This document shows, piece by piece, positions 6,811-56,704 of a DNA stretch of 64,000 bases (position 1 is its first letter; each line of letters begins with the position of its first letter). This stretch comes from Maylandia zebra (taxonomy: Eukaryota > Chordata > Actinopteri > Cichliformes > Cichlidae). The translations under genes were made by a program, and so were the position numbers. The stretch spans positions 1,290,954 to 1,354,953 of the forward strand of contig NC_135167.1 of the NCBI RefSeq assembly GCF_041146795.1, written 5' to 3'. A model generated the notes under the pieces. The model saw only the letters and a list, made by a program, of their open reading frames with translations. It was not told the origin of the DNA and did no database searches.

Positions 6811-7278
6811 CAGAGGGGCGGTAGTTACACTGGCAGTAGCACAGGAACAGAGCGGGAGGGAGAGAGCAGGGACAACAACTCACATTAGAAAGGTATAGTA
6901 AACATCCACAACTATATTCAGTTGCGGATGACAAAGGATTCAGAAAGTTTATTCACGCAGGTCCATATGACAGAATATGCATGTTCTTTTTGTTTTCATA
7001 GTTTAATTTATATTTAATTGTGTTGTGGTTTGCAGTGTTTTGTGTTGTTTCACTTTAAATTTGTAAAAGGAAAAAGCTGAAAATTTAAATAGTTAAAAGT
7101 TGAAATGTGAATAATTGATTTTTGTATTATATGATTTATTTATTACACTTTATGTGGAGTGAATAAATAAAAGTATATTTACGGTGGCCCCTACAGACAA
7201 AGCACATACAAACTCAGAAGCTCAGAAGTACCAACGACCGGATTTGGTGTGTGGTAGTAACAGGTAAATTATTTGTGT

Positions 7279-7316
<38 letters not shown>
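7279..7316. repeat. (TA)n microsatellite
   Basis: Uninterrupted AT dinucleotide run within the 3' part of hAT-A. The corresponding place in the sister copy (about 46430) has only a few repeats, so the tract expanded after insertion. Confidence 0.9.
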
Positions 7317-7319
<3 letters not shown>

Positions 7320-7682
7320 TGTTTGTGTATAAATACACAAACAATACACATATGCTTTCAATTGTGTAATTTAAGTGATCTAGGCAGCTGTTTTGGAAGT
7401 TCAGTTAAAGCTAGAAATGTGTTTTGGAGTTTGTACGTGTTTTGTCTCTAAGGCCACTGCATATATTTATATATAAACATATATAAATAAAACCACTTTT
7501 TTTTACATTAGTAATTCCTTTTGTGCATAATTTTATATTATTGTTAATAATAAATTAATTAAAGCAACAAAACAACCTGAAGAGCCGGTTCGGAGCCGAA
7601 AGAGCCGTAAATCCCATCACTATAGGCCGTCACAGTCACTCACTTCCAGCCTACCCGGCTTTCGGAGGACCCGCCACAATTA

Positions 7683-22195: not shown

Positions 22196-24323
22196 ATGAA
22201 GTTTTTGGAGCTGTTTGGGCGTCTAAAATCCGTCGTTATCGGAATGATTCACGTGAAAGCGTTGCCAGGTAACAGAGTCCACCTGTCGGCGTCCTCCAGG
22301 TTCAGGTGAAGTGTTTGGTCGTGGCAGGGGGAGGTCAGTAAGAGCACAGAGGTTTGCAAAATGTGGTTTCAGGGTGAGCTGGCGTCCAGCTTCGCGTGGG
22401 CCTGTGCGTCATCAGGTTAAGACAACATCGCACATTCTGATTGGCTCAGATTTAGCTGATATGTGACATTTTCCTGCGTACGCTGCGCTCAGACATGAAC
22501 TTGATTAAGTCAGACGTGTAACATTTCAGCCTCGCACACCGGTGTGGTCGCCCTGTGACGGGGCAGTTAAACTTTATTTAACCAGGACAATGTGAGTCGA
22601 GATCAAACATCCCTTTTGCAGGCTGAGACTCGCAGCAGTACGATCGACCTTAACTTCATACGAAGATACACGGCAACAAAATACACAATAAGTACATCGA
22701 TGCAGACGATGACCCACCCTGAACCCTGAACCTCGGCCCCGTTCTCCTGTCCAAACAAGGCCTGCTCTCACTTTTTCTGCTGTCATGACCTTTGACCTTT
22801 CACACACTAACACACACTTTCTGCACGCTCTGACCTTGGGGTAAACTTGCTGGGACGTCCACTCGTAGGAATATTTTGGGATTGTGTTAACAGACCTGAA
22901 CACGGTCGCCCTGCAAACAGACCAAAGCTCTGCTTTTACAGAGGCGCTCACACCGCTGATGATCAGTTAGTCAATAACCTGCATCGATTAGCAGCAGCTG
23001 ATAGTTTCTCACACGCTGCGTTTTGGTTTAGTGTTGAATAAATAATGACACGCTGTAAATATGCGGTGTTTTGTTGTTCGTCCAGGTGATCATGGTTGTG
23101 TCCTGATGTGTCACCAGGTGTACTCGTGACTTTGAGTAGGAGGAGCTGCAGAGAAAAACATCACAGTTTGCGCTCGTATTCTTGTACATGCATGATGTGC
23201 ACATCGGTGCCCACATCCTTAAGTGTTGAGGGTACTCTTTGAGACCCTTTATAACAGGCTCCTCCTCTTCCTCAGGTAGCCCACTGGGCTCTTTGAAAAT
23301 GTCTGAAATCAGCGAGGCGGCGTGCCGGGAGGCAGCGATCTACAGAGACGCAGGGGTTGTACGTTTGTGCACGTTGTTTGCGTTCCTCACAGCTCTGCAG
23401 TCTGCACAGGCGAGGCGCTAACCGAACCTCCAATCCCGTCTTTCAGGATGGACTGATCGTTGAAAACATGCACGATGTGCCGTACTCTCTGAGCGCGGGC
23501 CCCGAGGTGAGCGCCTGCATGACCGCCATCTGCTGCAGCGTTAGGGCCGCCTGTCCGTCCCTGCCTATAGGAGCGCAGATCCTGACTGCAGCCAATCAGC
23601 AGGCTCTGGCTGTGGCTCTGGCTTCAGGTTCAGTTGTTCATTCAGTTCATGTTGATGTGTTTGGAAAGATGCAGGACGTGTGATCAGCACGGTGACGGCG
23701 CTGTGTGCTTCCAGGCCTGGACTTCATCAGGGCTGAGGCCTTCGTCTTTGCTCACGTGGCAGACGAAGGCCTCCTGAACGCCGGCGCCGGGGAGTTACTG
23801 CGGTACCGCAAACAGATCGGAGCTGAGCACGTGCAGATCTTCACCGACATCAAGAAGAAGCACAGGTGAGGTCACCTGCTGTGCAGTTATAGTAAAGAAT
23901 GAAGTACTCAGTGATGCAAGAAGACGTGAAAACACTTCCTGTGTCTGAGTACAGCTGCAGATAATCAGGATGAGCGGCCGGCCAACAGTCATTCATGCCT
24001 GTCACAGCTGAGCTTTCAGCACTGGGACGTGAATGGGGCCAGCCTGGGCGAGAGAGGTGTTAAAATGTGTGTCAGCACTTTGGCGAGCTCTTAGGCCGTC
24101 CTGGATGTTGCCTGGACCTGCGGCTTTCATGTTGATGGTCCCCTGTGGTGTCCTTCTGGTGTCTACTGCAGACACACTGAAGGGCAGCTCACCTGCTGCT
24201 GTGGGAGGAGCATCCACCCCACTGAGCAGCAAATCATGAAACTTTCACACACCTCACACAAGGTTTGATTTCTATTACAGTGCAAACCACTTATCATCTC
24301 CAGTGTGTAACATCCACACATGC

Positions 24324-29499: not shown

Positions 29500-29790
29500 T
29501 GTAGAAACTTTGTTTGAAGTTTCTCCGGTCTCCGGCTTGTTTAGTGCGCATGTGCTCTTTGAGCGTATCAAACTTTGTGCGCATGCGTTCGTTAAACAAA
29601 AGTAGAGTGAGATTAGAGCGTGAGTGTTTTAACGTGAGTTCCTGAGCGGACCGGCGCACCGGACCGTCTTCTCTCCGTTTCTCCGGTTTGTGTTCAGCGA
29701 AGAAGAATCAAACAGGCTCGTGTGTTTCCTCCTTCATTGATCTGCAGAGCCGGAAGTTGTCTACAGTTTGCGGACAGTGACGGACTGAAG
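29500..29790 (+). promoter_or_regulatory. c19orf12: GC-rich promoter and non-coding exon 1 of c19orf12
   Basis: CpG-rich sequence without a TATA box, ending in CTGAAG|GTAAGC, a strong donor at 29791. The next acceptor in the same orientation is at 30891-30892 (TTGTTTTCAG), which opens the exon bearing the start codon. This suggests an untranslated first exon and a 1.1-kb first intron. The layout contrasts with the TATA-box promoters of the two downstream paralogues. Confidence 0.5.
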
Positions 29791-30918
29791 GTAAGCAGAA
29801 TGTGTTCCGATCAGCTGTGTGACCTTTGACCTCTGCAGCCTCACACAGAGAGGGGAACGAGTCTGAGTGGTCGGTAAAAAAAAAAAGTCCCGAGTTCGCA
29901 GTTGAATCCAACCGGTTCAGATTATCCGACTCTGTGAGTCAGACAGAGCAGCTGATGTTCACGTCCTGACTCTGTAGTTACTTCTTGTTTGCCGGTGTGC
30001 TACACCTGTCACTGCCGAGCCCGTCCCACCAAACTCCGCTCAGAAACCGTCTAATTTAAGTCCAACTGCTGTGATTGTGTCCGACGCGTTTACACGGAGC
30101 CTGTCCTGAACCCGGAGCTCTGACAGCCCCCTAAGAAACACGAAAGATAACGCAGCAGGGCCGTGGATGTGGTTTATTCGAGTAATTATAATGATTACAG
30201 GCCGTCTGATGGTTTCAGGCTGCGTTGGAAAGTAAAAGTGAAACCAAGCTGTGGTCCTTTCCGTGCCTCGCGTGTGCGTGACAGTTTTATGCAAACAGGC
30301 TGAAGGTGGATGACACTCTGCTCTTTGAATCTCACTTTTCTTTGTTACATGTCACAGTCAGCAGCTGATGGAAAACTGAAACTGGTTTTTATTTTAGGGT
30401 CAGACGTGCTGCTTCCACTTTTGTGTCTGTGCTGCATTTCTACTGTATGTTATTTCTATTCATGCGTCATCATACAGCTGCACATTTGGCACAGGTGGAT
30501 GCTGGGAAAGGTGGAGGCGGAGCAGAAGGAAGAGAAGGAGACGCGAGAGAAATCGCAACCGCTGAGCAGCGTAGGCTCGGGTTGGGTGGTTTGTGTGGTC
30601 GCAGATAGACACGGAGTCAGTACACACGTGACCTCGTGTCGCACACGCGTGTGTTACTGTGACACGCTGTGTGTGACGTTAGTCACCGCTGCCTCTCTCA
30701 CGGAGCTCACACACTGTTGCATCAATGATGCAGCAACCACAGAAATGCGATTAAAGATGTGACAGCTGCAACACGCTAACAGCAGATTTACCTGTGAAAC
30801 TGTGACGCTGGCAGCTCACCTGTCCCAGGTGTGCGTCGCTGTGTAAGGAATAACTACTTACACTCCTCTTCATTTTTGAACCTTGTTTTCAGGAAAGACA
30901 CCACGTGGAGTCGCAGAG

Positions 30919-32297
30919 ATGCCCACCCGGATGGACGACGTCATGCGTTTGTGCTGTGAAGTGTCGGCTCACGAGGAGATCAAGGTCGCCGTGAAGAACT
31001 CCACCAAAGGGGCGATGGTGGCGGGAGGATCTGCGTTTGTGGGCGGGCTGCTCGGCGGACCTCCGGGGATCGCTGTCGGTAAGTAGAAGAAGAAGAAGGA
31101 GGAATTAAATCTGCTGATTCAGCAGAAGGAGATAAAAAGACATAAAAGGAAACAGAGGAGGACGCTGGGTTTGAGTTTGTCGGTTTAAACCTGACTGTGG
31201 ACGAGGCCGCGTGTTTGCCACAGCTGTCAGAGTAATAACACGCTCTGAGGATTTGTGCTTTTTGTGGTAGAAGGCAGTAAACACGAGCAGGTTCGAGTCC
31301 TCTGCAGTAACTGCAGGTAAGAAGACGTTTGGAGGCTTTAGTTGCTGCAGTGATCGTCACGCGGGCAGCCTCAGTAACCTGGACCAGCAAAGTCCTCCCC
31401 ACACAGCAGCCATCTTGAAAGGCCTCTGGCGTTATGTAAATCGCTTTGTGTGGCCGACAGGAGAGTTAAAGCACACCTGTGTGAACGAACAGGTAAACGA
31501 CCTCAGTGAAGGCAGAGCCGTTTCACATGTGTGACGATTATTTTTAACCACACGCTGAATTTAGTCGTTTGCATTGATGGAAACACAGACGCACTTTGGT
31601 CACCAAAGTTTGTAAATCTGATAACTTGAGAACGAGGCGACGCAGAGTTTAAAATTCACAGCACGGTGCGTGTACTAACATCTCATTTGATAAGAGGTCA
31701 AGGTCAGAGGTCAAGTTTTCTGAAACTCTGGCGAAGCCCATAATTCAACAGGGGAGTCACAAGTTTGTCCACCAGGAGGCTTTATGTCCTCACAGGTGCT
31801 CACATGCATGGCCTGAAAGCACACGCCTTAACACGCTCTGATCTTTTCCATAATAGATATAATATAATCAATCAATAAATGTATTGATGTGAACAGCCTG
31901 TGTTTAAAGCTTTAGACGTTTAAAGTTGGACGTCGCTGTCGCTGACCTCGGCCACAGCTGTTACTTAAGCCTGTTTACGCCTGTGTGTGCGCCTCTGACG
32001 CGCTGGTGTTCTTCTTCTGCATCTCTGTCAGGCGGCGCCGTCGGCGGTCTCCTGGGCAGCTGGCTGACCAGCGGGCAGTTCAGACCTCTGCCTCAGATCC
32101 TGATGGAGCTGCCTCCCCCGCAGCAGAGGCAGCTCTACGAGTCCATCACGGCCGTCTTGGGGAACCTGGACTGGACGGACGCGGCCCAGCTCGTCTCGCT
32201 CGTGATGGGGAACTCCACCCTCCAGCAGCAGGTCGCCGCTGCCTTAATTAGCTACGTCACCAAGGAGCTGAGAGCGGAGGTGCGCTACAAGGACTGA
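30919..32297 (+). CDS. c19orf12: C19orf12 homologue, conserved copy (copy 1)
   Basis: Small membrane protein of mitochondria, ER and their contact sites; human C19orf12 mutations cause the iron-accumulation disorder MPAN. Two coding exons (30919-31078 and 32032-32297) join through codon G54 to 141 codons, the length of the shorter human isoform. The hydrophobic hairpin at about 30-65 is a glycine zipper with a central GGPPG turn. It is followed by [17 protein letters not shown] and a C-terminal helix ending in [14 protein letters not shown], nearly as in human. The start matches human after a spliced untranslated exon. Introns are GT-AG. AATAAA at 32702-32707 is a likely polyadenylation signal. 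It lies beside ccne1 as in human 19q12, so it is the best orthologue candidate of the three copies. Confidence 0.95.
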
Positions 32298-33059: not shown

Positions 33060-34340
33060 ACCTTGGGCTTAGCCAACCTTGGTACTCGTGTCTGTTGATC
33101 GTGGTAAATATGCTGTGCTTGTGTTATTGGATATGACAGCTGCATTTGACACAGTGGACCACGACCTGCTGCTCTCCCGCTTACATCACTGTGTGGCAAT
33201 TTCTGATCTGGCATTGTCATGGATAAAATCATATCTTTCCAAAAGGAGTTTTTGTGTCAAGCTGGGGCTGGCCGCTTCCTCTGTGGCCCCTCTGCTTTGG
33301 GGTGTGCCCCAGGGATCTATCCTTGGGCCATTATTTTTCTCGCTGTATTTACTCCCTCTTGGTGCGATTTTTCGTAAACACGGAGTGTCATTTCATTTGT
33401 ATGCCGATGACTGTCAGCTTTACTTACCTTTTAGTCATTTGGATACCTCCCCATGTCAATCACTGCTTGACTGTCTTAGCGATATTAAATTATGGATGGC
33501 AAATAATTTTTTGAATTTTAATGGTCGCAAAACGGAAGTAATCTTATATGGCCCGCATCGTTCTACTGATACCCCAGAGGTTGATTTTGGTGATTTGACC
33601 TCTCATCTGAAAAGTTCAGTCACTAATCTTGGTGTTAAACTTGATTCTGCGCTTACTTTTGAAGGCCATGTAAATGGGGTGGTGAAATCAGCTTTTTATC
33701 ACCTCAGACGCCTGTCGAAGGTTAAGCCTTTCCTTTCCAAACCCAATTTGGAAACTCTTATTCATGCTTTTATCACCTCACGTCTGGACTATTGTAATTC
33801 CCTTTTAATAGGGGTCGGGTCGGGCACCTTGTCACGCCTGCAGTTTAACCGGTAGTAGGAAATTCGATCACATCACTCCGGTTCTGGCTTCCTTGCATTG
33901 GCTTCCCATTGAATTTAGGGTTCGTGTTAAAGTCCTTTTATTGGTTTTTAAATCTTTAAATGGTCTGGCTCCTGTCTATTTATCTGATTTGCTGAAGCCA
34001 CATGTTCCTCCTCGCTCGCTCCGTTCAGCTGAGCAGCAGCTGCTGTCGGTCCCTAAGTCGCAGCTGAAATGCAGAGGAGACCGTGCCTTTTCAATTGCGG
34101 CTCCGATGCTCTGGAATAACCTTCCCCTCCAAATTAGACAAGCGTCATCAGTGCAGGTCTTTAAGTCCAGATGGAAAACCTATTTTTATTCCCAGGAAAC
34201 TGACACCTTCTTATTTATTTTATTGTATGTAATGATTTTATGGTATTTTTAATTTGGTTGTTGTTTTGTTCTGTGTTGTTCAGCACTTTGGTCTGCCTGG
34301 TGTGTTCTTAAAGTGCTATACAAATAAACGATGATGTTGA
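33060..34340 (+). mobile_element. Truncated CR1/L2-like LINE, reverse transcriptase fragment
   Basis: A 5'-truncated LINE. Frames 33079-33855 and 33893-34252 encode the palm domain (LDMTAAFDTVDHDLL, GVPQGSILGPLFFSLY, HLYADDCQLY with the catalytic YADD), the thumb (RLDYCNSLL) and the C-terminal HWLPIEFRVRVKVLLLVFK region. The frame breaks near 33850, so no full protein is made. The 3' end has ATACAAATAAACGATGATGTTGATGATG. Upstream domains including the endonuclease are missing. It is a dead copy. Confidence 0.85.
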
Positions 34341-35350: not shown

Positions 35351-35660
35351 CACAACATTAAAATGACAAAGTAATAGTACGAGAGCGTCTCTGGCTTTGC
35401 ACTGTAAAAGTCCAAAGTTCATACTTATGTGTAGGTGAGCTTCAGGGTTCAGGATCTCAGGTGTTCCTCTGCACTGCTGCACCTGGAGTCTCACTGTGAC
35501 ATCATTAAAACCAGTCCTGAAAGACGTGCGTATAAAGCTAAAGAAGTATCCAACCGAAGGTGTCGGCTGGCGTGAAATATCGTTTCACATTGAAAGTGAA
35601 AATTCCTAACATGTGACAGTTGTTCCGGTGTTAAGGGTCCGGTTTGGTTTGTACGAGTAA
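35351..35660 (+). promoter_or_regulatory. Upstream region of copy 2, duplicated near copy 3; holds IRF/ISRE-like motif
   Basis: The last 150 bp (35511-35660) are identical base for base to 42941-43090. The preceding part (35360-35514) is related, with gaps, to 41465-41573. Within the identical block, GAAAGTGAAA (35592-35601) fits GAAANNGAAA, the core recognised by interferon regulatory factors and ISGF3. It is preceded by the inverted TTTCAC. The block ends about 130 bp upstream of the copy 2 TATA box, so it is placed as a proximal enhancer. Confidence 0.6.
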
Positions 35661-35728
35661 AACAGGACAAACCAGCACATTTTCAGCATTATGTACTGGA
35701 TGTTTGCAGAGACAATCCAGGTAATAAT

Positions 35729-35864
35729 GAAACTTAAGAAGAACTGGAAGCCACTTACACCTCCACCCGCCCCACAGACATCTTGATATAAAGTGGAAGC
35801 GGGATGCTCAGGTCAGTGTTTCTGTGCACAGCAGATTATCAGCTCGCACACTCAGGACAGCACG
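35729..35864 (+). promoter_or_regulatory. TATA promoter and non-coding exon 1 of copy 2
   Basis: TATAAAG at 35787-35793 would place transcription start near 35815-35820. The first exon ends in AGGACAGCACG|GTAAG (donor at 35865), closely matching AGGACAGCAAAG|GTAAG of copy 3. At 35729, AATAATGAAACTTAAGAA stands at the position of the copy 3 ISRE but has lost the second GAAAC half. The acceptor of the coding exon is TCTCTTACAG, ending at 35970. Confidence 0.65.
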
Positions 35865-35986
35865 GTAAGACGTTTATTCTTATTCATGCTGCATTATTAA
35901 TATGGATGTGTATTCTGTTTTAGTTCATAGGAACTTCTCGGTGATCAGTTATCATATTTTTCTCTTACAGGAGATTCACCAAGAAG

Positions 35987-36739
35987 ATGGAAGCGAAAGA
36001 TGAACATATCGAAAAACTGATTCATGAATTATCACCTGATGTAGAGAGAGAGCTGAGAAACACCTGGATGCGCCTCCTCAAAGGAACAGTTGTGACGGGA
36101 GGATGCACATTAGTATGCGCGGCTCTCTTTGGACCTGTGGGGTTTGCTGTTGGTGAGTGAATGAATGATCCAGATAAGAGGGAACTGTTCCTACAGTGGG
36201 TAATAATAAGAAAATAAAAACAAAATAAAGTCATTGTTTCTGAACAATGAGACCCTAACCCTATCTGAACAGATAACATGGAGGAGAAACACATACGGGG
36301 ACAAAACCATAAATCGGATCATTTTTCTTTGGCTTTTACGAAACTTGTTCACAGTAAATATAAATCTATTATTAAACAGATAAAAATCCTCAGCTGTGTT
36401 TTCTGATGTTTTTATTTGGGATAATTCAAACACTTAACCTTTTTGTGGAAACAAGACTGGATACCAAACCTGGTTCTGACTTTCCATTCACCCTCTCTTC
36501 TGTGTCTAGGTGGAGTCATTGGTGGCCTCTCCAGCTGGCTGACCAGTAAAAAGTTCAAGTCTGTGCCTGAGATCCTGGGGGAGATGACTGATGACCAGAG
36601 GAGAGAGCTCTTCAACGCAATCAGGCGACATTTACGTGGCCTGGTGTGGAAAACTGCTGAAGACCTCATTGATAAAGTGATGAGAAATCCTGATCTCAAG
36701 ACCACAATTATCAATTTGTTAATCGGAATGTTAATGTGA
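35987..36739 (+). CDS. C19orf12-like protein, diverged copy 2
   Basis: Two coding exons (35987-36152 and 36510-36739), split at the same glycine codon as copy 1, give 131 codons. The N-terminus (MEAKDEHIEKLIHELSP) is a charged helix unlike copy 1. The hairpin is recognisable (TGGCTLVCAALFGPVGFAVGG), but the paired glycines are replaced by C, A and F and the PPG turn by PVG. The second half keeps the family pattern: SWLTSKKFKSVPEILGEM, a predicted helix with LVWKTAEDLIDKVM, and a hydrophobic tail. It ends about 10 residues earlier than copy 1 and lacks the ELRAE tail. AATAAA at about 36903 may end the transcript. An intact frame and clean splice sites argue it is a functional gene. Its role is unknown; membrane location is inferred from the family. 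Confidence 0.88.
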
Positions 36740-38365
36740 GAACAGGCGTCTTAACATTTATGACTCTGTGTGTGTGTTGGCCTTCGTGATGGACAAACAC
36801 AGTCAGTGAATTTTAACCAGACGTATTTCTCAGTTAGAAACATAAATTAGAGATAATCTGTGCCGGAGTAGAAAGTCAATGTATTTTCTTCACTCTGATT
36901 CAAATAAAAGAAAAAAACTGCTGAACATTTTTGTGTCCTTACAAATGATTTCATTCTCCTGAATAAAGTACTCCACATACTGTGCAAATGTAAAATATGG
37001 AGAATTATACTTGAAGTTGGCAGCCGGTTTTCTCAGACCAACAGCTCCTAAAGGTCAGACATCAGTTTCCTCCGGCATGTTCATCTTTAGCTCCCTGCTC
37101 GCCTTTTTGGGTTTGGAAGACAAAGAAACGTCAGAAGGTGCAGCTGAAGAACATCAACAGCACGTTTATGGAAAAAAAACGAGTGTAAAATCCACACGCA
37201 GCACATGACCAGCTTACCCACATTCAACAAACTCAGATGTTAAAGTTGTTTGAATGAAGCTGAAAGGTCAGACCAGGTGTAACCAAAGGGTGCAGTTAAA
37301 AGCAAAGGTGATAAAGAGCTTTAGGTTTCCCGTGAAATCTTAAGAACTTCGAGGTGATACACGAGATCTGAGCTGAATGTTTGGGCTGAAGTGTGTGAAC
37401 AAGATGAAGCAGAAAAGCTTGTGTTTCAGTGAAACACTGAGAGTGTAATCAGACCAGTCCAGCAGAAATCCTGCAAACACTTCAGTGTGAAACCAGAGAG
37501 AAGACAGGATGTCCATTCTGAGGTCTGCAATTTCTCTGTACCATTACACTGCGCACTGACTGAGAATACAAGTATCTGAACTTGTTCTTCAGGTTTTTAC
37601 ATTAAATGGAACATTTAAAGGTAATCCATTCTGCTCATTTAAGCTCCGATTCACAGTCTGTATCTGATCCTGGGCCTCAGTGCAACCACTCAGCTCATTG
37701 CATCTGAAAGAAGCGCTTTTAGCTCCTCCCCCTACCTTCCTGTCATGTTTGGGTCAAATCTGACCAATTTACAAATGACAAAACCCATAAATATTGTGTT
37801 TTACATCCGATTGCCTATGGGTCTTATGACATCCTCCACAGTATGCACTATATGAAAGTGATAAGCACCTCTTTAGTTGAATTTTGAACGTTTTAATCAA
37901 CTTTGTTACATCTCTAATGTTCCCGGCCATAGAAAACACCATAGAAAATGAATTGGAATCCAACCTCCACCCCATTTGGCCTCCAACCCCCTGAATGGCC
38001 CACTGAACTGACGTTTCTTATGTTAATTTAAGAGCTGTTAAGACTAACTGGTCAATTGTGACCAGAACACTAAAGTAGGGTGGGTGTTGGGTCTAAACTT
38101 AGACCCCACTGACCCTGGGACTTATTCCCGTGAAGGACATGCATGTGAGAATGTGTGTGTGCACGTGTGCAAGAATGTCTGTGTGTGTCTCTGTGTGCGT
38201 GACTTCCTGATCACAGCTGTTTCTAACAACATCCTGGTCATAAAGAGGGTAATCTCCCCCACACCCAATGTATGGTTCAATTCCTGTATTGGTTCACCAT
38301 ACACAACACAGTGAAGCCATAAAAAGGGCAGGAAGCTTACCAAACATGAAACAAACCTTCACAAG
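36740..38365. other. Intergenic, no gene seen
   Basis: 3' flank of copy 2 followed by ordinary sequence. No terminal repeats, coding exons or RNA genes were recognised. Confidence 0.4.
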
Positions 38366-40023
38366 GATCAGAATCAGAATCAGAATCAGAAAGGGTTTTA
38401 TTGCCAAATGTTGAGCAGGTTTACAACATTAGGAAATTGCTGCGGTACTTAGTGCAAACATACTGTCAGATAACGCTTAAATAGACATAAAAATAAGAAT
38501 TAAAAGTGCTAAGAAGATAGATATATACATGATATATACATGAGTGCAGGTGGTGATCAGTGCAAACATGGAATGATGCAGTGACACAGCGTAGGGTCAT
38601 GTGTTAGTGGTGGGAACAGTCATACGGTTGTTGTTCATGTGTTCAACAGCAGAGGGGAAGAAACTGTTCTTATGGCGAGAGGTTCTGGTGCGAATGGACC
38701 GGAGCCTCCTGCCTGAGGGGAGCAGGTCAAACAGACTGTGTCCAGGGTGAGAAGGGTCAGCTGAGATCCGAGCTGCACGCCCCAGTGTCCTGGAGGTGTA
38801 CAGGTCCTGCAGAGATGGGAGTCTGCAGCCAATCACCTTCTCAGCAGAGCGCACAACACGCTGCAGTCTCTGTTTGTCCCTGATAGTGGCTCCAGCGTAC
38901 CACACGGTGATGGAGGAGGTGAGGATGGACTCGATGATTGCGGTGTAGAATTGCATCATCGTCCGTGTTGGCAGGTTGAATTTCTTCAGCTGCCTCAGGA
39001 AGTACATCCTCTGCTGGGCTTTCTTAATGACGGAGGTGATGGTGGGCTCCCACTTCAGGTCCTGGGTGATGGTGGTACCCAGGAAGCGGAATGAGTCCCC
39101 AGAGGTGATGGGGGTGTCAGTCAGGATGATGGGGGGGAGTGGGGCTGTGTGCTTCCTGAAGTCCACAATAATCTCCACTGTCTTCTGGGCATTCAGCACC
39201 AGGTTGTTGTGGCTGCACCAGGACACCAGACGTTCAACCTCCCTCCTGTAGGCAGACTCGTCCCCGTCCGAGATGAGTCCAATAACGGTGGTGTCATCTG
39301 CAAACTTGATTAGCTTGACAGACTGGTGGGTGGAGGTGCAGCAGTTGGTGTACAGGGAGAAGAGCAGAGGAGAAAGAACACAGCCCTGAGGGGAGCCGGT
39401 GCTGATGGTCCGGGAGTCCGAGACATTCTTTCCCAGCCTCACGTGCTGCTTCCTGTCCGTCAGGAAGTCAGTGATCCACCGGCAGATGGGATCAGGCACA
39501 TTCATCTGGGAAAGCTTGTCTCGGAGATGGTCTGGAAGGATGGTGTTGAAGGCAGAGCTGAAGTCCACAAACAGGATCCTGGCGTAGGTTCCTGGGGAGT
39601 CCAGAAGCTGCAGGATGAAGTGTAGGGCCATGTTGATGGCGTCATCTACAGACCTGTTGGCTGCAGGGGGTCCAGGAGGGGGGCCGTGAGGGTCTTGAGA
39701 TAGGAGAGAACCAGGCGCTCAAATGACTTCATGACCACAGATGTCAGAGCCACGGGTCTGTAGTCATTTAGTCCAGTGATCCTAGGTTTCTTGGGGACAG
39801 GGATTATGGTAGAGGACTTGAAGCAGGCAGGCACATGACATGCCTGCAGTGAGGAGTTGAAAATGCCAGAAAACACTGTGGATTTACTTCCAATATTTGT
39901 CGCATTTGCAGCAGATTTACTACAGACTTTGATCAGGAAAGTGAGCCGGCGCACTCGTGCGTCTGAGAAGACGCGGACTGCTAACTGCTCTTCCTGGGAT
40001 CTTCCTTTCCAACGTACGCTCAC
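38366..40023 (-). mobile_element. L2/CR1-like LINE, reverse transcriptase plus 3' tail
   Basis: On the minus strand, a 344-codon frame (38597-39631) encodes palm and thumb of a LINE reverse transcriptase: FVDFSSAFNTI, GSPQGCVLSPLLFSLY, and KFADDTTVIG with the catalytic aspartates intact, then SSITVWYAGAT and a C-terminal GRRLRSIR region. The preceding fingers ([19 protein letters not shown]) lie in another frame (39646-40023), so there is a frameshift, and the endonuclease is missing. The 3' end carries repeated TCTGAT units (38366-38390). It is a non-functional copy of the same family as the fragment at 7992-8281. Confidence 0.88.
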
Positions 40024-40349
40024 TCCGGAATAAGCTGGACGAGCTGGCCCTGATGAGAAGCATGAACAGAGACTTTGCCTCCTCCTGTGTCTTATAGATG
40101 TGCTTGTGATAAAACACTACAGCCTCCCCAGAACCTCGAGAGGCTGGGGAGGGGGACAAAGGAATTCCTTTGATCACAGAGTTGAAACAATGTAGAGATG
40201 GTAAGCATAAAAATGACAACATTTAACAATTCACTTTAACAGTGGGGGTGCACACAACAAGGGGGTTAAGAAAAAGTACTCATGATTGGCTGCTCCTCAC
40301 AAAAAAACACCTTCACCTCTCTGTGACAACATCCAGAACAAAGAGTTAA

Positions 40350-41332
40350 GTCTGTGAAGGTTCTCAGTCATCCAGGTCATCGTAGTCAAAGGAGCTTGGA
40401 AAGAAAAGCGTCTGGACTTCTTTAAGTTGCTTGAAGACGTTTCACCTCTCATCCGAGAAGCTTCTTCAGTTCTAAGGTCAAATGGTGGAGAGTCCCAGAT
40501 ATAAACCTAGTGGGAGATACCCCCCACAGAGGGACAAAAGGACCCCCTGATGATCCTCTAATCGCCTGAGCCAAGGTGTGAAACTGGGTGTGGGTCCCAA
40601 TCAGGATCAATGACATCCCGGTGCATTTCAGACCCAGCAACACGCTCAGACACAAACACCCGAAAGACAAAACTCCAACACACAGACTTAACAATGTGGT
40701 GTTTGCTGTACAGTGCAGCGAGGAATGACCAGACCTCTACATTGGAGAGACCAAACAGCCACTTCACAAGCGCATGGCACAACATAGAAGAGCCACCTCC
40801 ACAGCAGTCCATCTGCATCTTAAGGTCAAAGGTCACTCTTTTGAGGATGCCAATGTTCACATTTTGGACAGAGAGGACAGATGGTTTGAAAGAGGAGTGA
40901 AGGAAACCTTTTATGTGCACTGTGAGCGACCATCTTTGAACAGAGGCGGGGTTTACGACACCAACTGTCTGCCATCTATAATCCAGTTTTGAGATCCCTT
41001 CCCAGATGCCTTAACGCCCACTCACATCCTGGGCCATCTGACCTCAGGAATTCGCATGATAAGGTGGAGCCAGGTTTCACAATGAACTCACCCGGAACCC
41101 TGGCTGATTGTGACCCACACCCAGTTTCACACCTTGGCTCAGGCGACTACAGGATCATCAGGGGGTCCTTTTGTCCCTTTGTGGGGGGTATCTCCCACTA
41201 GGTTTAAATCTGGGTCTCTCCACCATTTGACCTTAGAACTGAAGAAGCTTCTTGGATGAGAGGTGAAACGTCTTCAAGCAACTTAAGGTGTCCAGACGCT
41301 TTTCTTTCCAAGCTCCTTAGACAACAAAGAGT
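40350..41332. mobile_element. Penelope-like element remnant, GIY-YIG endonuclease between inverted repeats
   Basis: Flanked by a 13-bp duplication AACAAAGAGTTAA (40337-40349 and 41333-41345). About 200 bp at each end are inverted copies of one another (for example GACGTTTCACCTCTCATCC at the left against GGATGAGAGGTGAAACGTC at the right). Between them, around 40690-40990 on the plus strand, a frame reads DLYIGETKQPLHKRMAQHRR and then HILDREDRWFERGVKE. This is the GIY-YIG-like endonuclease end of Penelope-like retroelements, though the first motif needs reading past an upstream frame break. The reverse transcriptase is absent. Confidence 0.8.
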
Positions 41333-41464
41333 TAACAAAAAAGTGCTGAGAGCAGGAAATACTGTTCGTACATGGAGCTCGATATTAGAACTTCTGGTCA
41401 TGTCACACAAGTTATCAGGACACAAACATTAACAGGAAGTCTTTTAAAGGTGTAGCTGAGCCAA

Positions 41465-41573
41465 CATTAAAATGACAGCATAATACTACGGGAGCATTTC
41501 TGGTCCTGCACTTCAGGGTTCAGGATCTCAGGTGTTGCACCTGGAATCTACACTGTGACATCATTAAAACCAG
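41465..41573 (+). repeat. Left half of the duplicated copy 2/copy 3 upstream region
   Basis: Related to 35360-35514 (shared text includes ACATTAAAATGACA, TTCAGGGTTCAGGATCTCAGG and CACTGTGACATCATTAAAACCAG). The match stops at CCAG and resumes at 42941, so the two halves were separated by a later insertion. Confidence 0.75.
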
Positions 41574-42940
<1,367 letters not shown>

Positions 42941-43090
42941 CCAGTCCTGAAAGACGTGCGTATAAAGCTAAAGAAGTATCCAACCGAAGGTGTCGGCTGG
43001 CGTGAAATATCGTTTCACATTGAAAGTGAAAATTCCTAACATGTGACAGTTGTTCCGGTGTTAAGGGTCCGGTTTGGTTTGTACGAGTAA
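42941..43090 (+). promoter_or_regulatory. 150-bp block identical to 35511-35660, with IRF/ISRE-like motif
   Basis: It matches the copy 2 upstream block over all 150 bp, including GAAAGTGAAA (43022-43031) and a TATAAAG-like word. Here it lies about 1.4 kb upstream of the copy 3 TATA box. A weaker echo of its right edge (GAGACAAACC...CCAGTAACATTC) is seen near 44047-44080. Confidence 0.7.
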
Positions 43091-44472
43091 CACGAGATAA
43101 ACCAGTCCAGTAACGTCCTGAAGAAATGAAACCGATGTGCTAATATGGTAAATGGGTTTATATTAAGACACTAATGAACACTGGCAGGGTCCTTACACCT
43201 CACAGAGTGGGTAACGTGATCACACAGGTTTGGATGTTTGGAGCGTCTGTTGGAAGCACCGAGACGCCGTAAACACCTACAGTTCAGAAGCACACGGCAC
43301 AGATGTGACTCGATCAGGGTACTTTCATTTCTTATTGTCTCAAAAACGATTATGATACCAACTCATCTGTTAGTCAGTGAATGAATGAACTAAACAAAAT
43401 GCTGGTCACCAAGTCAGAGCTTAAAGTTTTTGTTTGCTTGTTTAATATGAAGGCGAGTGAGCTTCAGGTTTCCGGTAAATGCCAGGCGCTGCTCCAGAAA
43501 GCAGGTTTATCAGATTCTTTCTGTTTCTGTTCCAGAAGAGCCAATCAGAGTCTTCAGTCGGCTCTGATCGTGTTCATCCAACATTTGTAGTGAAAGAAGC
43601 CGGGCTGTGCGCAGCAGTCTGTAAGAGTTACCATCAGAGGCTGCTGTTGAATCCATCTCCCCCGCTGAGCTGCATCATTTATTTGTGTTCATCAGCACTG
43701 GCTCTCTGTGCCTCCAGCCTCTTATTTTAACCACGTGCCGTGCTATCCACCGCCCCCTGCTGACCGTTAAAAAGAGTGCAGGTTTAAGGACCTTCAGTTT
43801 TGGCTTTAATCTTCAGACGCTGATGAGTTTAGGTCAGCTCTTGTTCCTGAACAGAAACCTGGAGTTTCATCTCAGGATGAAAACCCTCAGATATTTACCT
43901 GAACCTGGTCTCTGGAATGAGCCCACAAACAAAAGCAGACGTCTGCGAGTGAAAAATTCCCAGTGTGTTCTTCCAGCATTCACAGAGACAACAGCCGACA
44001 TCAGTGATGTCAGGGCGGAGTGATGGTGCTGGATCCTTCTGTCAAACTGAGACGAGACAAACCGCTCCAGTAACATTCAGCAAAAAGTGAAGAATAAAAG
44101 GTGTTTTTGTGTCAGCGCGACAGAAGAGTGTGGATTTAGACCCTGGTGTGAAGCTGAAATCCAGCTGAGCACACATCTGTGCTTATCTGTAACTTTAAAT
44201 TCATTTCACTTTTACTGCACGGCACCAATTCACAACTGCAGTCGCCTCCAGCAGCTTTAAACTGTAAGGCTGTAAAGACCCTGCAACGCTGGAGAGGAAC
44301 CCAACAATCAGACGATGCTCATGAGCAGCACCTGGAGTGGAGGCTGAGGGAGGGGCAGCCAAAAGGCCAACAGAGCTCCTGAGCTCAAACTACAAAGCTT
44401 CAAATCATTTCAGACATTTTTCAGTCACTGATGAAAGTATTGCAGTATTTATAGTTGTATGATGGAAATAAT
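43091..44472. other. Intergenic flank of copy 3
   Basis: No coding exon recognised. It contains the partial echo of the duplicated block near 44047-44080 and otherwise ordinary sequence. Confidence 0.4.
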
Positions 44473-44571
44473 GAAACTGAAACTCACACACTGACACCTC
44501 ACACACAAACACACACCTGCTATAAAGGTGTGTGTTTGTGCTCGTGCTTCATTCCTCTCAGGACAGCAAAG
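44473..44571 (+). promoter_or_regulatory. ISRE plus TATA promoter and non-coding exon 1 of copy 3
   Basis: GAAACTGAAACT (44473-44484) is a perfect interferon-stimulated response element core. TATAAAGG begins at 44521, 37 bp downstream, which puts transcription start near 44550. The short first exon ends AGGACAGCAAAG and is followed by GTAAGAAAC (donor at 44572). It would splice either to TTGGACCTTACAG (ends 44840) or to CATCCAG (ends about 44919) before the coding exon. Confidence 0.75.
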
Positions 44572-44960
44572 GTAAGAAACATAGATCATTACAGCTTTTC
44601 TGTCTTTCTGCTACTTGTCACTTAAACTTGATCAGTCATTGTTGATCGCACCAGCTGATCCATGTCGTCTATATTAGCTTATTTTAACTTTCACTGCTGT
44701 GGACGAGTCAGGAGTGCTTTTTAAAAGTTCGCGACATGAATCAACTTAACAGTCAAAAATATTATCAATGATTACAAATGAATCTGAATATTTTTCTTCT
44801 GATTAAATATTAGACTGAACGTCTGCTGCTTGGACCTTACAGGCCTGATGTGATTTGCTGCTTTATGAATAAAACTGAATTTGTTCTGACAGTAAAATTA
44901 CATCACAGTTACATCCAGGCAGAAACTGACAGAATTTTACCCAAATACTTCATCAGTAAG

Positions 44961-47900
44961 ATGAACGACAAAATAAAAAAAGATCTCCAACAACTGCTCG
45001 ACAAATTATGGTCTGAGCCAGATCTCAAGGTCACCATGAAGAACTCGGTGAAAGGAGGAATTAAGACCGGAGGATGTGCGGTTGTTGGTGGGCTGGTTGG
45101 TGGACCTCCGGGGTTTGCTGTGGGTGAGTACATCAATTATCCATTTGTGAAGCAGACATTAAAGCAGCTGATGATCGGGCCAAATGAAACGAAAGAATCG
45201 AGGACACAGTGAGAACTTGGACAAAATCAATCAGATTTTTTATTTTATTGGGTTATTGGACTGATAGACTGCCATGTTAAAAAAATATGTGGAATTGGGA
45301 GGAAACGATCCCTCACACAGAGCTTTAACTTCGGAACTTCAAAAATATAAACTGCTGTACGTGAACTTTTTGTCCATGTAGCGACTTCCACAGTCGCTAG
45401 AGGCCGGGGATGGAGCCTGCCTATTTGCCTGACGCGCTGTCAACTTTTCGCAATAATGCGAGAGGTGGAATTGTTTGCTTGTTTATTAAAGTGCTTTGAG
45501 AGTTTACAGAGTAATGTCATCGGCTCCTGATTCAGACTCTTACAACATCACAGGCTCTAATGTAACAAGGCGAAACATGTTGTGCAGCGCAGCGGTCAAC
45601 AAAATAGTGATGGGTCGTTCGCGAATGAAATGGCTCTTAGAGCCGGTTCTTTGACGTGAACGACGCGAGCCGGCTCCTTATCGCGAGCCGTCACGTGGGG
45701 TTTTTTTTTTTCCCCTTCTCTCACCCTCTCTCTCGCACTTTTTTTCCGCTTCACTGTGCACGTGAGCCTTGTGCTTTACGCTGGGCAGAGGGGGGAGGGG
45801 CGGTAGTTACACTCAAGTAGCACAGGAATAGAGCCAGAGGGAGAGAGAGCCAGGGACAACAACGTCACATTAGAAAGGTATAGTAATCATCCACAACTAT
45901 TTTCAGTAGTGGAAGATAAAGGATTCAGAAAGTTTATTCATGCAGGCCCATATGACAGAGAATATGCATGTTCTTTTAGTTTTCATATTATAATTTATAT
46001 TTAATTGTGTTGTGGTTTGCAGTGTTTTGTGTTGTTTTCACTTTAAATTTGTAAAAGGAAAAAGCTGAAAATTTAAATAGTTAAAAGTTGAAATGTGAAT
46101 AGTTGATTTTTGTATTATATGATTTATTTATTACATTTTATATGGAGTGAATAAATAAAAGTATATTTACGGTGGCCCCTAGAGACAAAGAACATACAAA
46201 CTCCAAAACACGTACAAACTCCGAAGCACGTAAAAACTCCAAAGCACATTAAAGCTCAGAAGCACATAAAAACTCAAAACACGTACAAAAGACAACAGAA
46301 GTGCTCCAGGATGCTGGGAGCAGTGTTGAGCTTTTGTTATCTTGTGGCTACACAAGCCAGCAAGTACCAACGACCGGATTTGGTGTGTGGTAATAACAGG
46401 TAAATGAACTTTTTTTAAAATTATTTGAATATATATGAGTGCCTGTGTATAAATACACAAACAATACACACATGCTTTCAATTGTGTAATTTAAGTGATC
46501 TAGTAGCTCTGCTTTGGAAGTTCAGTTCATGCTAGAAATGTGTTTTGGAGTTTGTACGTGTTTTGTCTCTAGGGGCCACCGCATATATTTATATATAAAC
46601 ATATATAAATAAAACCACTTTTTTTAATGTTAGTAATTCCTTTTGTGCATAATTTTACATTATTGTTAATAATAAATTAATTAAAGCAACAAAACAACCT
46701 GAAGAGCCGGTTCGGAGCCGAAAGAGCCGGCTCTTTTTAGTGAGCCGAACCGAAAGAGCCGGATCTCTAAAAAGATCCGGAAATCCCATCACTACAACAA
46801 AAACTACGGCTACCCGCCCTCCTCTCTGTCAAAATCAAAACCAGTGAATGACAGACTGACAACGCCCATTTATGTCACCGCTAGCACCCACGTGACTCCC
46901 ATAACCAGTGTTGGGGAGTAACGGAATACATGTACCGCCGTTACGTATTTAAAATACAAAATATGAGTAACTGTATTCCGTTACAGTTACCGTTTAAAAA
47001 GGTGGTATTCAGAATACAGTTACTTTGTTGAAATAAATGGATTACACTGCGGTACTTTCCTGTTTCATATTGTCGCGGGTCAGCACTGTTTGGGTTTTGT
47101 TTGACAGCTACGTTCTGTTGTTCCAGGCGGCAGCGTTACGGTTGCCATGGTTACAGGGCGACGCTCTCTCTCTCTGCTACTGTGTGCTTCCTGGGTGAGA
47201 GAGCGCCTTTTCGTTGTTGTTGTTGTGCTAAGCTAACAGGCAGAATGCTACAAGCATAGCTCTAAAGAATGTAGCATCATGGGCAGTGTAGTCCGTGTTG
47301 CAGGGAGAATGCACTGCCATACACGTTATGTGTCTGTGAGCGCGAGGAGGGAGAAAAAGGGGAGTGGAAAGGTACGAGTTGTCATTGAGCAGAAACGGGA
47401 GCTGGAAGCATGTAAATATAATAATAACCACTGCAGCCAAGAAGAGAGCCTGACGAGCCCAGTTGTAAGTAAGCTATTAAGACTCGACTGTACACCGTGT
47501 TCGTGTTTTCCTCCGAAAACAATAAGTTCCGTTGGAGCCTTTCAACGCCTCTCTCTGTCTCTCGCTAGCAAAGTTGACCCACACAACAAAGTAAAGCTAT
47601 TTTTCGGCTACGAGCCGACAGGGACCCCGCCGTATTAGTCAGAGGTCCCTTTACTACAGTTCAGAGTCGCGGACCTTCAGTAACAGTAATAAATCACACA
47701 GCAATAGTACATTCACGTTGTTGTAAAAAGCACGATAATATATTAAGTAATCCAAAGTATTCAGAATATGTTACTGTCATTGAGTAACGTAACGGAATAC
47801 GTTACAGAATACATTTTGGGGCATGTATTCTGTATTCTGTAATGGAATACATTTTAAAAGTAACCTTCCCAACACTGCCCATAACAACCAAACAAATAAA

Positions 47901-48567
47901 AACCCAGTGATCATCAAAATTCAATACATTCAATTATGGCTCCTACAGTCCATTTAAGTGCAGATCAGCAAACTGTGAGCGGTAAACTTTGAGTCTCCAT
48001 CACTCTGCTCTCTGCTGGGAAACTGTTGAACCAAACCAACACATAAGTTGCAATGAAGTGAAAATTCTTTGAAGCTTTGTGGAGTTGAGGGGACCGAAGC
48101 ATTTTAGCAGTCATGCGATGAACTTGAACCTCAGTCCCATCAGATATAATTTACTCTCAGTCTCCTCTTCAAGACAGGCAGAAATATTTCTAACTGGAAA
48201 CATTATTCAAATAATCCGTCAAAAATATAACACGAATCAACACAGTGGCCATTTCCATGGTGAGGAATGAAGAGAAACAGCTCCTAAAGCAACATATGTG
48301 ACTCTCCATCCACCCTCTTGTCTTCCAGGTGCAGCCATCGGAGGCATCTACAGCTGGAAGACCAGTGACGATTTCAAGCCTCTGCCTCAGATCCTGCGCG
48401 AGATGCCTCCTGCTCAATTGGACGAGCTCCTTAAATCAGTCATGGCTATTTTAGTTCATCTGAAATGGGAAACTGTAGAGGGCCTCATTGATTATGTGAT
48501 GAAAGACATTCCTCTCAAGAAAGCAATCATTGATGAGTTAAAGCGCAGGGTGAAAACTTTAACCTGA
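44961..48567 (+). CDS. C19orf12-like protein, diverged copy 3
   Basis: Two coding exons (44961-45123 and 48329-48567), with the split at the same glycine as the other copies, give 133 codons. The N-terminus MNDKIKKDLQQLLDKLWSEP is a charged helix. KVTMKNSVKGGIKTGG and the VVGGLVGGPPGFAVG hairpin follow copy 1 closely, with the GGPPG turn intact. After the hairpin come SWKTSDDFKPLPQILREMPP and a helix with LKWETVEGLIDYVM, as in copy 2. The tail is basic (KRRVKTL) and lacks the ELRAEVRY ending. A Met further upstream (44850) is possible if the earlier acceptor is used, but 44961 aligns with copies 1 and 2. The 3.2-kb intron is inflated by two hAT elements. Polyadenylation signals lie at 48629 and 48696. 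Likely functional; membrane role inferred from the family. Confidence 0.9.
45605..46794. mobile_element. Intact hAT MITE (family A) in copy 3 intron, TSD CAACAAAA
   Basis: Ends TAGTGATGGG and CCCATCACTA. The 8-bp duplication CAACAAAA is perfect on both sides (45597-45604 and 46795-46802). Arms are rich in paired AGAGCCGG/CCGGCTCT words. It is the undisturbed sister of the nested copy at 4852-7622 and shows what that element looked like before insertions. Confidence 0.9.
46906..47877. mobile_element. hAT MITE in copy 3 intron, TSD CCCATAAC
   Basis: The left end CAGTGTTGGGGAGTAAC pairs with a right end reading CAGTGTTGGGAAGGTTAC from the other strand. CCCATAAC is duplicated exactly (46898-46905 and 47878-47885). 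The sub-terminal regions contain many GGAATAC/GTATTCC words, a hallmark of a widespread fish family. A central open frame (47279-47638) has no domain. Confidence 0.9.
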
Positions 48568-53390: not shown

Positions 53391-55137
53391 TTTATTTGTA
53401 AAAACACATTTGGATGTTGAAATGACATCACAGTGACATCAGCAGCCGTTTCTTCTGCTTCGATGGCGTGCGATCCTTCAGCGAGGCACACGTGACTGAG
53501 CGCGAGCGTCCGTCAGGAGCGACGACGGATTTTAAAGACGTAAAGTTCAGGAAACGCGACGAGCGGCTGCTTCGGCCTGAGCCGCCACACGGAGCTTCAA
53601 CGGGTCGCAAAACTTCGTCTACAGATTAGCTTCAGGACAGAAACTGAGAGGACGTCCAGCTACGACGGCGAGAGCTGGAAGCCACAGCGTGAGGTCAGAC
53701 CTTAAAGTTTCCTCGCTCTGAGGTGAAGCCGTGACGACTGAGCCCGTGGCATTGAACACTTCTCTATGGGCAGTAACGAGGAAGAACTCTGAGAGCTTCC
53801 TGCTGGGCCGACCAACGCTCAGACATCGTTTCATCGCCTCCTGAAAGCTCAAACTCACGTGTGCCAAACTGCAGCCGGGAGAGGCCAGGCTTCACCTGCT
53901 GGCTCAACAAGCTGCTTCCTGCCACGTACAGGACGTTCCTCCAACATCTCTAATATTTAGCACAAAGGCTGATGCGTCAGCAGAGACAAAGCTGAGCTTC
54001 AGTAATCAGAGTACCTGGCTCACTGTGTGCTGACAGCAGGGGCGAGCTGCGGGGTCAGCAGCCGATGAAGGCACAGGTGTAAAAGAGGCTGAACAGAGTT
54101 CACCTTGAAGGCACTGCAGGTGAGGCGTCTGACGGTCTCCTTTAAAACGATGGAGACTTTTTCATGAACCTGAAGCCGAAACGGTGACGGCGCCGCGTGA
54201 GGCGTAAACACCGGAAACAGCGTTTTTTTTCTGTCACATCGACGTCTGTGAGGCTGAAGCCCACGCGTGAACGCTCGCTCTGTACTAGTCACGTGTGCCG
54301 TCGCAGATCAGGATGAGGACACGTCACACAAACGCAGGAGATTCAGCAAACAGCGACAGAAATGTGAAGAGTGCAGCGGTGCTTTAAGGCAAACGTAGTG
54401 TGTGAGGCAGTGATTGAGGCTCTTTGTAAGGCCTTTATGTTCTCAGTAACAAACGTTCACAGACTCGACCATCTGGAGGTAAGAACGAGGCGAGGTCAAA
54501 GGCCACCTTTAACTCATGACTTTTGGGCCACGTCCCCTTCAAACCTACAAAGCCGTCTCCTTGTTCACCTCTGCACCTGCTGCAGATTCCTAGATGGCTC
54601 CCTGGAAGTCCCGCTCCAAACGGGAAGCTTGGATCCGTGGCTGGAGGAGCAGCATTCCCGTTTGGTGTCTGAAAGCGAGCCAACCGGTTCAGAGGTGCAC
54701 AAGAAGAACAGACGCGCTCCCATGACCTCATGACCTCCAGCACAATAAGAAGATCCTAGCTAGTGTTCTACGAGGACTTTTTGTCTTTGCTGAATTATCG
54801 TGTAAAATTTATGTGCAAAAGCAGAACCGCCCCAAGCATCTGAAGTCGTTGTTACACCAAAGACAGAAAAGCTGCGGCTTTTCCTCCCGAGGTAAACGAC
54901 GCCGACCTCTGATCGAGCGATTCTGGTTTGAAGGCGTGCGATTGGTGGGATTGTTCTCTAAAGGGAAAGGCGGCAGAGTCAGGACCTGCAGCGAGGCGCT
55001 CACAGTGAGGGACGATTAAAGCAGTGTGATTAGTAAAGCTGTGTGCAAAAATACATTTGGATTCATTCAGATGTAAAGCAAGAAAAATAAAAAAGACTTT
55101 ACACTGTACAGGAGCTGAGGTGTGAGAGGCGGCGAGT
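53391..55137 (-). other. ap2a2: Probable 3' untranslated region of ap2a2
   Basis: No coding exon and no recognisable transposon between the ap2a2 stop codon and minus-strand AATAAA signals at 53391-53396 and 53077-53082 (plus-strand TTTATT). The sequence is unique and fairly GC-rich, as expected of transcribed untranslated sequence. The exact end was not determined. Confidence 0.5.
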
Positions 55138-55263
55138 CTAAAACTGCTCTGAGAGCAGCTCGCAGAGTCTCTGAGACACCGAGTCCCTGCTGGTCCGGAG
55201 CGTGAGGCGGTACATCTGCACAGGAAGCACTCAGAGTTACACACAGGTGAGGGTTGCACACAG

Positions 55264-55346
<83 letters not shown>

Positions 55347-56704
55347 ACCTGAGCCTGCATGTTGGGCTCCAGTCTGAGCAGGCAGCCCACCTGAGTGGTC
55401 TTCGTGTGAACGACTCCCGCTCCGACAAAGTTCGCAGGATTGGGATCGACGCCGTCCAGCAGAGCGACACCGAAACCTAAAATCTGGAGAAAAATACATT
55501 TTCATATTCACACCGTGGGAATAAACGTGGACGCTTCGGTCAGCGTCTCTGCACGCCCGCGAGTCTCGCGGTCGCCACGCCGCAGCCTCACTCTGCTACC
55601 TGTGTGCCGACCTCAACTTCGATGTTTGTGCAGCAAATTCCTGATCACGTTTGTCTTATCTCCACAGGCTGAAGAGCGTATGCTGTAATCTGATTACTGC
55701 TATAATACAGCTATATTACTGTGTAACTCTGTGGCTCATCTGCACGACTCAGGTGGCTCACACCTGAACCGAGGGTCAGAGGAGGAGTTTATCCTCATCA
55801 AAACTCCAGCGTGTAACATCTGACCACTAGGTGTCAGTAGACTTTAGACACCTGAGCACAAACAGCTCGTTATCTTACTGCACCTGACGACATGCAGCAG
55901 CCTGAGGGGGCAGCTGCTGTGATTCTAGCTGCGGAAATAAAACTGAACAAAAACTTGTTTACAGCCAAAGTGATTTGTGTCTTTTTACCTTGGCCTTGGC
56001 GACCTCGGTGTCCATCGGGTGTTTGGCTTTGAAGATTTTCTGGACCTCCTGCTGAGGACTGCGGACAAACAGAAGGAAACGAGTCCTCGATTACTACGTG
56101 ACCCATTTGAACCCCGACCCGTTATCCAATCCTGAAAGCTCCTCACAGAAACACACTCGAGCTCTCTCAGATCGATCAGACGTAAAACAGAACAAATGTT
56201 TGGTGTCAGCGCTCGAATTCAGAGGCTGAAGTGTTTTCAGTCACAGCAGCGATCGACCATCGATCGGCGTATTGATCAGTGAAAGCTGCGCTTACGCTCC
56301 GAGCTGCTTCCAGCGCTGGAAGAAGTCCTGCGACATCATCTCTGTGGGCTGGAAGAACTTGTTGAGCATCACGGGGAGCTTCACAGCGATGTTCTGCAGG
56401 GCCCCACCATACCTGAACGTGAGCACACACACGCAGTCAGAAGTGAGCACACAAACACACACGTATGTATTTATATCCTTGCGGGGACATCTCATTGACA
56501 TAATGCTTTCCCTAGCCCCCACCCTACCCATCAAAAATGAGTGCCTGACCCTGAACCTAAGCAGAACCTAACTGTGACCCTGACACTAAAACCACATTTT
56601 GACTCTCAAAAATGCCTTCAAACTCCTGGGACCCGGATTTTGGTCCCCACGAGGATAGTAAACTACCAAGTTTTGGTCCCCATGAAGATGTTAATACCTG
56701 TGCG

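Follow-up and report, generated by a model that had tools for sequence, protein, structure and literature searches.

Within a 64-kb stretch of the Maylandia zebra genome (NC_135167.1; hereafter the window, with motifs counted on both strands), three intact genes of the C19orf12 family lie in tandem, and the third of these carries a full interferon-stimulated response element (ISRE) upstream of a TATA box. All three predicted proteins exceed the 30-bit cut-off applied to the Pfam C19orf12 profile (PF20721), in agreement with the family assignment made in the initial annotation of this DNA. The reading favored here, on evidence that we judge to be evenly balanced, is that copies 2 and 3 are teleost tandem C19orf12 paralogues with small TATA promoters of their own, and that the promoter of copy 3 is ISRE-driven. 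Coordinates of all features are collected in Table 1.

The copy 3 promoter

The classical ISRE core, GAAACTGAAACT, occurs once in the window, where 0.04 occurrences are expected (expected motif counts are throughout the mean of 200 dinucleotide shuffles), and its last base lies 37 positions ahead of the TATAAA at 44521, so that the site is confirmed in position, spacing and uniqueness as it had initially been described. Of the 65 TATAAA sites on the two strands, only two, at 44521 (+) and 44453 (-), have an ISRE-like match of this quality in the 120 bp ahead of them, and both look at the single site at 44473. On a graded score, built on the established ISRE consensus with weights of our own making, the ISRE-like sequence upstream of the TATA box reaches 18 in copy 3 vs 14 in copy 2. 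An ISRE in the proximal promoter is one criterion for an interferon-stimulated gene, and it is present in copy 3 only. The balance tips slightly toward interferon inducibility of copy 3 on the strength of this promoter, and such inducibility seems rather doubtful for copy 2. The transcription start sites (TSSs) of both copies were placed by TATA spacing alone. The copy 3 TATA box also lies within a near-perfect, partly CA-rich inverted repeat (44506-44538; CACAAACACACACCT / AGGTGTGTGTTTGTG).

Descent of the proximal promoters

Aligned with each other, the copy 2 and copy 3 sequences of proximal promoter plus first exon score 36, a value reached by none of 500 shuffles (mean 14.2, maximum 26.5) and by none of 420 stretches taken elsewhere in the window (maximum 26.5). 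The first-exon sequence AGGACAGCA, previously noted as common to the two copies, has just two occurrences in the window, at 35854 and 44560, where it continues into CG|GTAAG and AAG|GTAAG, respectively. Because these promoters and first exons align, with the interrupted copy 2 site GAAACTTAAGAA standing opposite the copy 3 ISRE, the proximal architecture of the two genes reads as shared by descent. The TATA box of copy 2, its decayed site at 35729 and the GAAAGTGAAA of its upstream block are all where the initial annotation had put them. As sequences, GAAACTTAAGAA ranks as a weak ISRE and GAAAGTGAAA as the best remaining element of the ISRE or interferon regulatory factor (IRF) type in copy 2. 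Derivation of the copy 2 and copy 3 promoters from the 5' region of copy 1 was tried and rejected, the alignment scores being reached by 78 and by 67 shuffles, out of 200 in each case.

The 5' region of copy 1

Copy 1, the canonical C19orf12 gene, has a non-coding first exon that ends at 29790, as judged by eye from GTAAGC and a CAG acceptor near 30891. TATAAA is absent from both strands between 27947 and 33026 around this gene, and its promoter has no ISRE. The claim that copy 1 lacks the features of its paralogues is thus borne out for the promoter but fails for intron 1, which holds the second- and third-ranked ISRE-like sites of the window by graded score (AAAACTGAAACT, one base from the copy 3 site, and AAAAGTGAAACC). 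Likewise, the promoter had been called GC-rich; it is CpG-rich rather than strikingly GC-rich, with a CpG observed/expected ratio (o/e) of 0.87 and a GC content of 0.49 over 29500-30900. No ISRE-like site outside the 5' regions of C19orf12 genes ranks among the best three in the window. Given the two sites in intron 1 of copy 1, interferon input may predate the extra copies and probably belongs to the ancestral gene, in which case the fish copies would have sharpened it through the gain of a compact promoter. Mild interferon inducibility of copy 1 is a tentative suggestion that we regard as improbable.

Interferon induction or a chance match

If copy 3 is indeed an interferon-responsive gene, factors activated by interferon or virus (ISGF3 or an IRF) would bind its ISRE at -78 and increase the TATA-driven output of a short, three-exon mRNA. 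The product would be a small glycine-zipper membrane protein, predicted to reside where C19orf12 does, at mitochondria, the endoplasmic reticulum (ER) and their contacts, and during infection it might alter membranes or the quality control of mitochondria. Copy 2 would respond more weakly via the IRF-type cluster at -223. An immune role for the fish copies is offered as a hypothesis.

The most serious competitor, to which we assign a substantial though minority likelihood, is that the copy 3 ISRE is a chance match, copies 2 and 3 being TATA genes with tissue-specific expression and no input from interferon. Several observations weigh on that side. The case is built on a single site in a single promoter of one genome, with a motif picked after the sequence had been read. 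The looser motif GAAANNGAAA has 7 matches vs 4.0 expected (standard deviation 2.1 among shuffles), which leaves the full match and its position as the notable features. The looser pattern NAAANNGAAACY, which includes both copy 1 intronic sites, has 3 matches vs 2.3 expected, and because it is not enriched in number these intronic sites may be chance matches. A circular-shift test of ISRE-like site placement gave modest p values of 0.02-0.06 over eight settings, and the lower values of 0.004-0.008 belong to a range picked after the sites had been seen. The proximal site of copy 2 is interrupted. The three tandem copies of zebrafish, in the excerpted text of PMC7785858, are expressed at 48 hours post-fertilization and in development without a known stimulus. 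Against all of this, a 12-mer expected only 0.04 times nonetheless sits at -78 of a TATA promoter, and TATAAA sites away from this place all lack a site as good in the 120 bp upstream of them.

On the side of interferon induction, human C19orf12 ranks 9th of 37 blood transcripts distinguishing one bacterial sepsis from others; over-expression is the rule in this signature (33 of 37), with 4 exceptions named, none of them C19orf12, and the excerpted report terms LAP3 and WARS of the same signature interferon-gamma-induced and describes C19orf12 as not previously tied to the immune response (PMC3091321). Other points count against interferon induction: a signature in blood may stem from the mixture of cells, quantitative reverse-transcription PCR of C19orf12 in arthritis synovium is given as showing no difference in the available part of PMC9066892, and in the liver of acidified sea bass C19orf12 was down (log2 -0.76) while few interferon-stimulated genes moved, according to the portion of PMC10273735 consulted. 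A literature search returned no fish interferon experiment on C19orf12-family genes among the matches listed; PMC9228135 names si:ch211-260e23.9, which is not one of the four zebrafish C19orf12 genes, and C19orf12 appears in PMC9981960 only within the reference list and in PMC11754274 only within an ontology list.

The duplicated upstream block

Joint inheritance of the promoters of copies 2 and 3 had been proposed for their whole architecture. It is upheld for the proximal part, by the alignment described above, and rejected for the upstream block, which is identical at 150 of 150 positions in its two copies, 9 CpG sites included, against a coding synonymous divergence (dS) between the genes of 0.59 (95% interval 0.39-0.89). 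Because of this disparity, the two blocks probably became identical only once the genes had duplicated, whether through gene conversion or through recent copying. GAAAGTGAAA does lie within the copy 2 block, as claimed, with the correction that it is present twice (35592 and 43022), the block being duplicated. Similarity decays within 15 bases at the 3' side, and to the left of the block homology reaches 35353/41462 as identical runs of 23, 26 and 16 bases. The left flank on the copy 3 side is split by a 1367-bp insert (41574-42940) that has CCAG at both ends and is absent at copy 2.

Selection for a conserved IRF enhancer, rather than recent copying, as the source of the block's identity strikes us as unlikely. 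It would account for the content of the block: at least three GTGAAA/TTTCAC half-sites per 150 bp are found at 242 of 63850 positions, in two segments that both cover block copies and are the only such clusters in the window, and CpG o/e is 1.28 in the block vs 0.15 in the copy 3 promoter. Complete identity with a sharp 3' edge nevertheless fits conversion or recent copying better than base-by-base constraint, and the shared left flank amounts to only 26 and 23 identical bases, with indels. Within the block GAAAGTGAAAATTCC overlaps the NF-kappaB-like GAAAATTCC, an arrangement that may resemble the interferon-beta enhancer. An IRF-type cell-type program (for example IRF1, IRF4 or IRF8, or PU.1 in leukocytes) or mitochondrial or ER stress, in place of type I interferon, could draw on this overlap, on the three half-sites in both orientations and on the fact that GAAANNGAAA sites are common to all IRFs, but it is less likely still, given that GAAACTGAAACT is the classical core and that 1.5 kb separate the block from the copy 3 TSS.

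The locus and its proteins

Each of the three coding sequences (CDSs) is open across one GT-AG intron. Identity over aligned residues is 47/127 for copies 1 and 2, 55/132 for copies 1 and 3 and 53/127 for copies 2 and 3, and the glycine-rich membrane hairpin is retained, its GG pairs and the following SW.TS being invariant in all three. The ratio of nonsynonymous to synonymous divergence (dN/dS) comes to 0.81 (0.49-1.32) for the pair of copies 2 and 3, and to 0.51 and 0.49 when these are paired with copy 1, which points to looser constraint between copies 2 and 3; positive selection was rejected, as the ratio is not confidently above 1. A relative-rate comparison counted 20 vs 12 unique residues out of 127, a difference too small to separate the two.

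The Pfam scan of the surroundings covered 30 of the 61 open frames of at least 110 amino acids (aa), and 6 of the 30 had a match. It places the three genes between cyclin E and AP2-alpha exons, and in the human genome, too, cyclin E1 neighbors C19orf12. Rfam gave no matches within the window, and none of 106 pattern matches to viral relatives was confirmed. With copy 3 as the query, the best sequence match among solved structures had E 0.31. The predicted structure of copy 3 has a mean predicted local distance difference test score of 66, falling below 50 in the membrane part (residues 30-69), and Foldseek of this low-confidence model against the PDB returned 29 matches at E <=10 and none at 0.001. 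A repeat pair with 88-93% identity (45795-46729 / 6813-7607) has one member within intron 2 of copy 3, and an inverted repeat with arms of about 223 bp and 95% identity (40382-40604 / 41104-41325) lies between copies 2 and 3.

Table 1. Features of the C19orf12-family locus in the window (positions counted from its first letter).
Feature	Position	Strand	Details
Copy 3 ISRE GAAACTGAAACT	44473-44484	+	-78 from predicted TSS
Copy 3 TATA box	44521-44526	+	TSS predicted 30 bp on, at 44551; exon 1 ends at 44571
Copy 3	CDS 44961-45123 + 48329-48567	+	133 aa; PF20721 83.9 bits
Copy 2 interrupted ISRE GAAACTTAAGAA	35729-35740	+	-86; aligns with copy 3 ISRE
Copy 2 TATA box TATAAA	35787-35792	+	TSS predicted 28 bp on, at 35815; exon 1 ends at 35864
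IRF-type GAAAGTGAAA	35592-35601	+	-223 from copy 2 predicted TSS; runs into GAAAATTCC
Copy 2	CDS 35987-36152 + 36510-36739	+	131 aa; PF20721 65.3 bits
Block, copy 2 side	35511-35660		150 bp identical to 42941-43090; three GTGAAA/TTTCAC half-sites
Block, copy 3 side	42941-43090		1.46-1.61 kb upstream of copy 3 TSS; GAAAGTGAAA at 43022
Copy 1 (canonical C19orf12 gene)	CDS 30919-31078 + 32032-32297	+	141 aa; PF20721 166.6 bits; frame open across splice
ISRE-like AAAAGTGAAACC	30234-30245	+	copy 1 intron 1; graded score third in window
ISRE-like AAAACTGAAACT	30372-30383	+	copy 1 intron 1; graded score second; one base from copy 3 site
Cyclin N-terminal exon	18210-18638	-	Pfam; 10/10 solved chains matched at E <=0.01 are cyclin E1
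BtpA-family exon	23297-23680		PF03437, 36.4 bits
AP2 alpha-adaptin exons	55070-55501, 61160-61576	-	Pfam; for the first exon, 7/7 matched solved chains are AP-2 alpha
Reverse-transcriptase pieces of retroelements	33073-33852, 38600-39718	one per strand	

Comparison with known systems

The tandem C19orf12 cluster is an already known arrangement. Human C19orf12 is the gene in which lesions cause the neurodegenerative disease mitochondrial membrane protein-associated neurodegeneration (MPAN). Like it, all three cichlid copies match PF20721 and keep the glycine-rich hairpin; unlike it, copies 2 and 3 reach 65-84 bits vs 167 for copy 1, and are without the C-terminal tail of copy 1. If interferon does switch on the fish copies, the C19orf12 family would have a task in immunity or membrane stress, and the immune aspect of MPAN would merit a look: neurons from patients show raised major histocompatibility complex class I, with interferon unmentioned in the excerpted text (PMC12710160).

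On zebrafish chromosome 7, three C19orf12 genes (b1, b2 and b3) form a tandem cluster where synteny to human chromosome 19 is greatest, and a fourth gene lies on chromosome 18 (PMC7785858, in part). The cichlid cluster shares with this one the tandem array of three genes and the synteny with human 19q, and the human neighbor, cyclin E1, adjoins the cichlid cluster as well. The two were compared by arrangement rather than by one-to-one orthology, and neither ISREs nor interferon is described in the excerpts of the zebrafish study.

A more distant parallel is the shrimp protein PmVRP15, of 137 aa with one predicted transmembrane helix, which rises 9410-fold after white spot syndrome virus and by BLAST resembles insect proteins at E 1e-8 to 1e-5, among them one named a C19orf12 homolog (PMC3956821, in part). 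The likeness is that of a small, single-helix, virus-induced protein with a weak family resemblance, known from the BLAST of that paper; the difference is that PmVRP15 looks pro-viral, because its knock-down lowered virus, again in the part of the study available.

A speculative synthesis, which we hold to be improbable though worth stating, would make C19orf12 an ancient infection-responsive family of membrane proteins that has repeatedly been drawn into antiviral programs, being linked to interferon-gamma in humans, induced by virus in shrimp, and split in fish into a constitutive gene and ISRE-TATA copies with an IRF-rich block kept identical by gene conversion. The IFI27/IFI6 (ISG12) family provides the closing comparison, its members being small, hydrophobic, glycine-rich mitochondrial or ER proteins under ISRE control. 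The Pfam profile of that family gave no match to copies 2 and 3 at E <=10, in a search where HMMER filters drop most weak matches, and ISG12 is at most a functional analogue. It is in outline that copy 3, as proposed here, resembles an ISG12-type gene.

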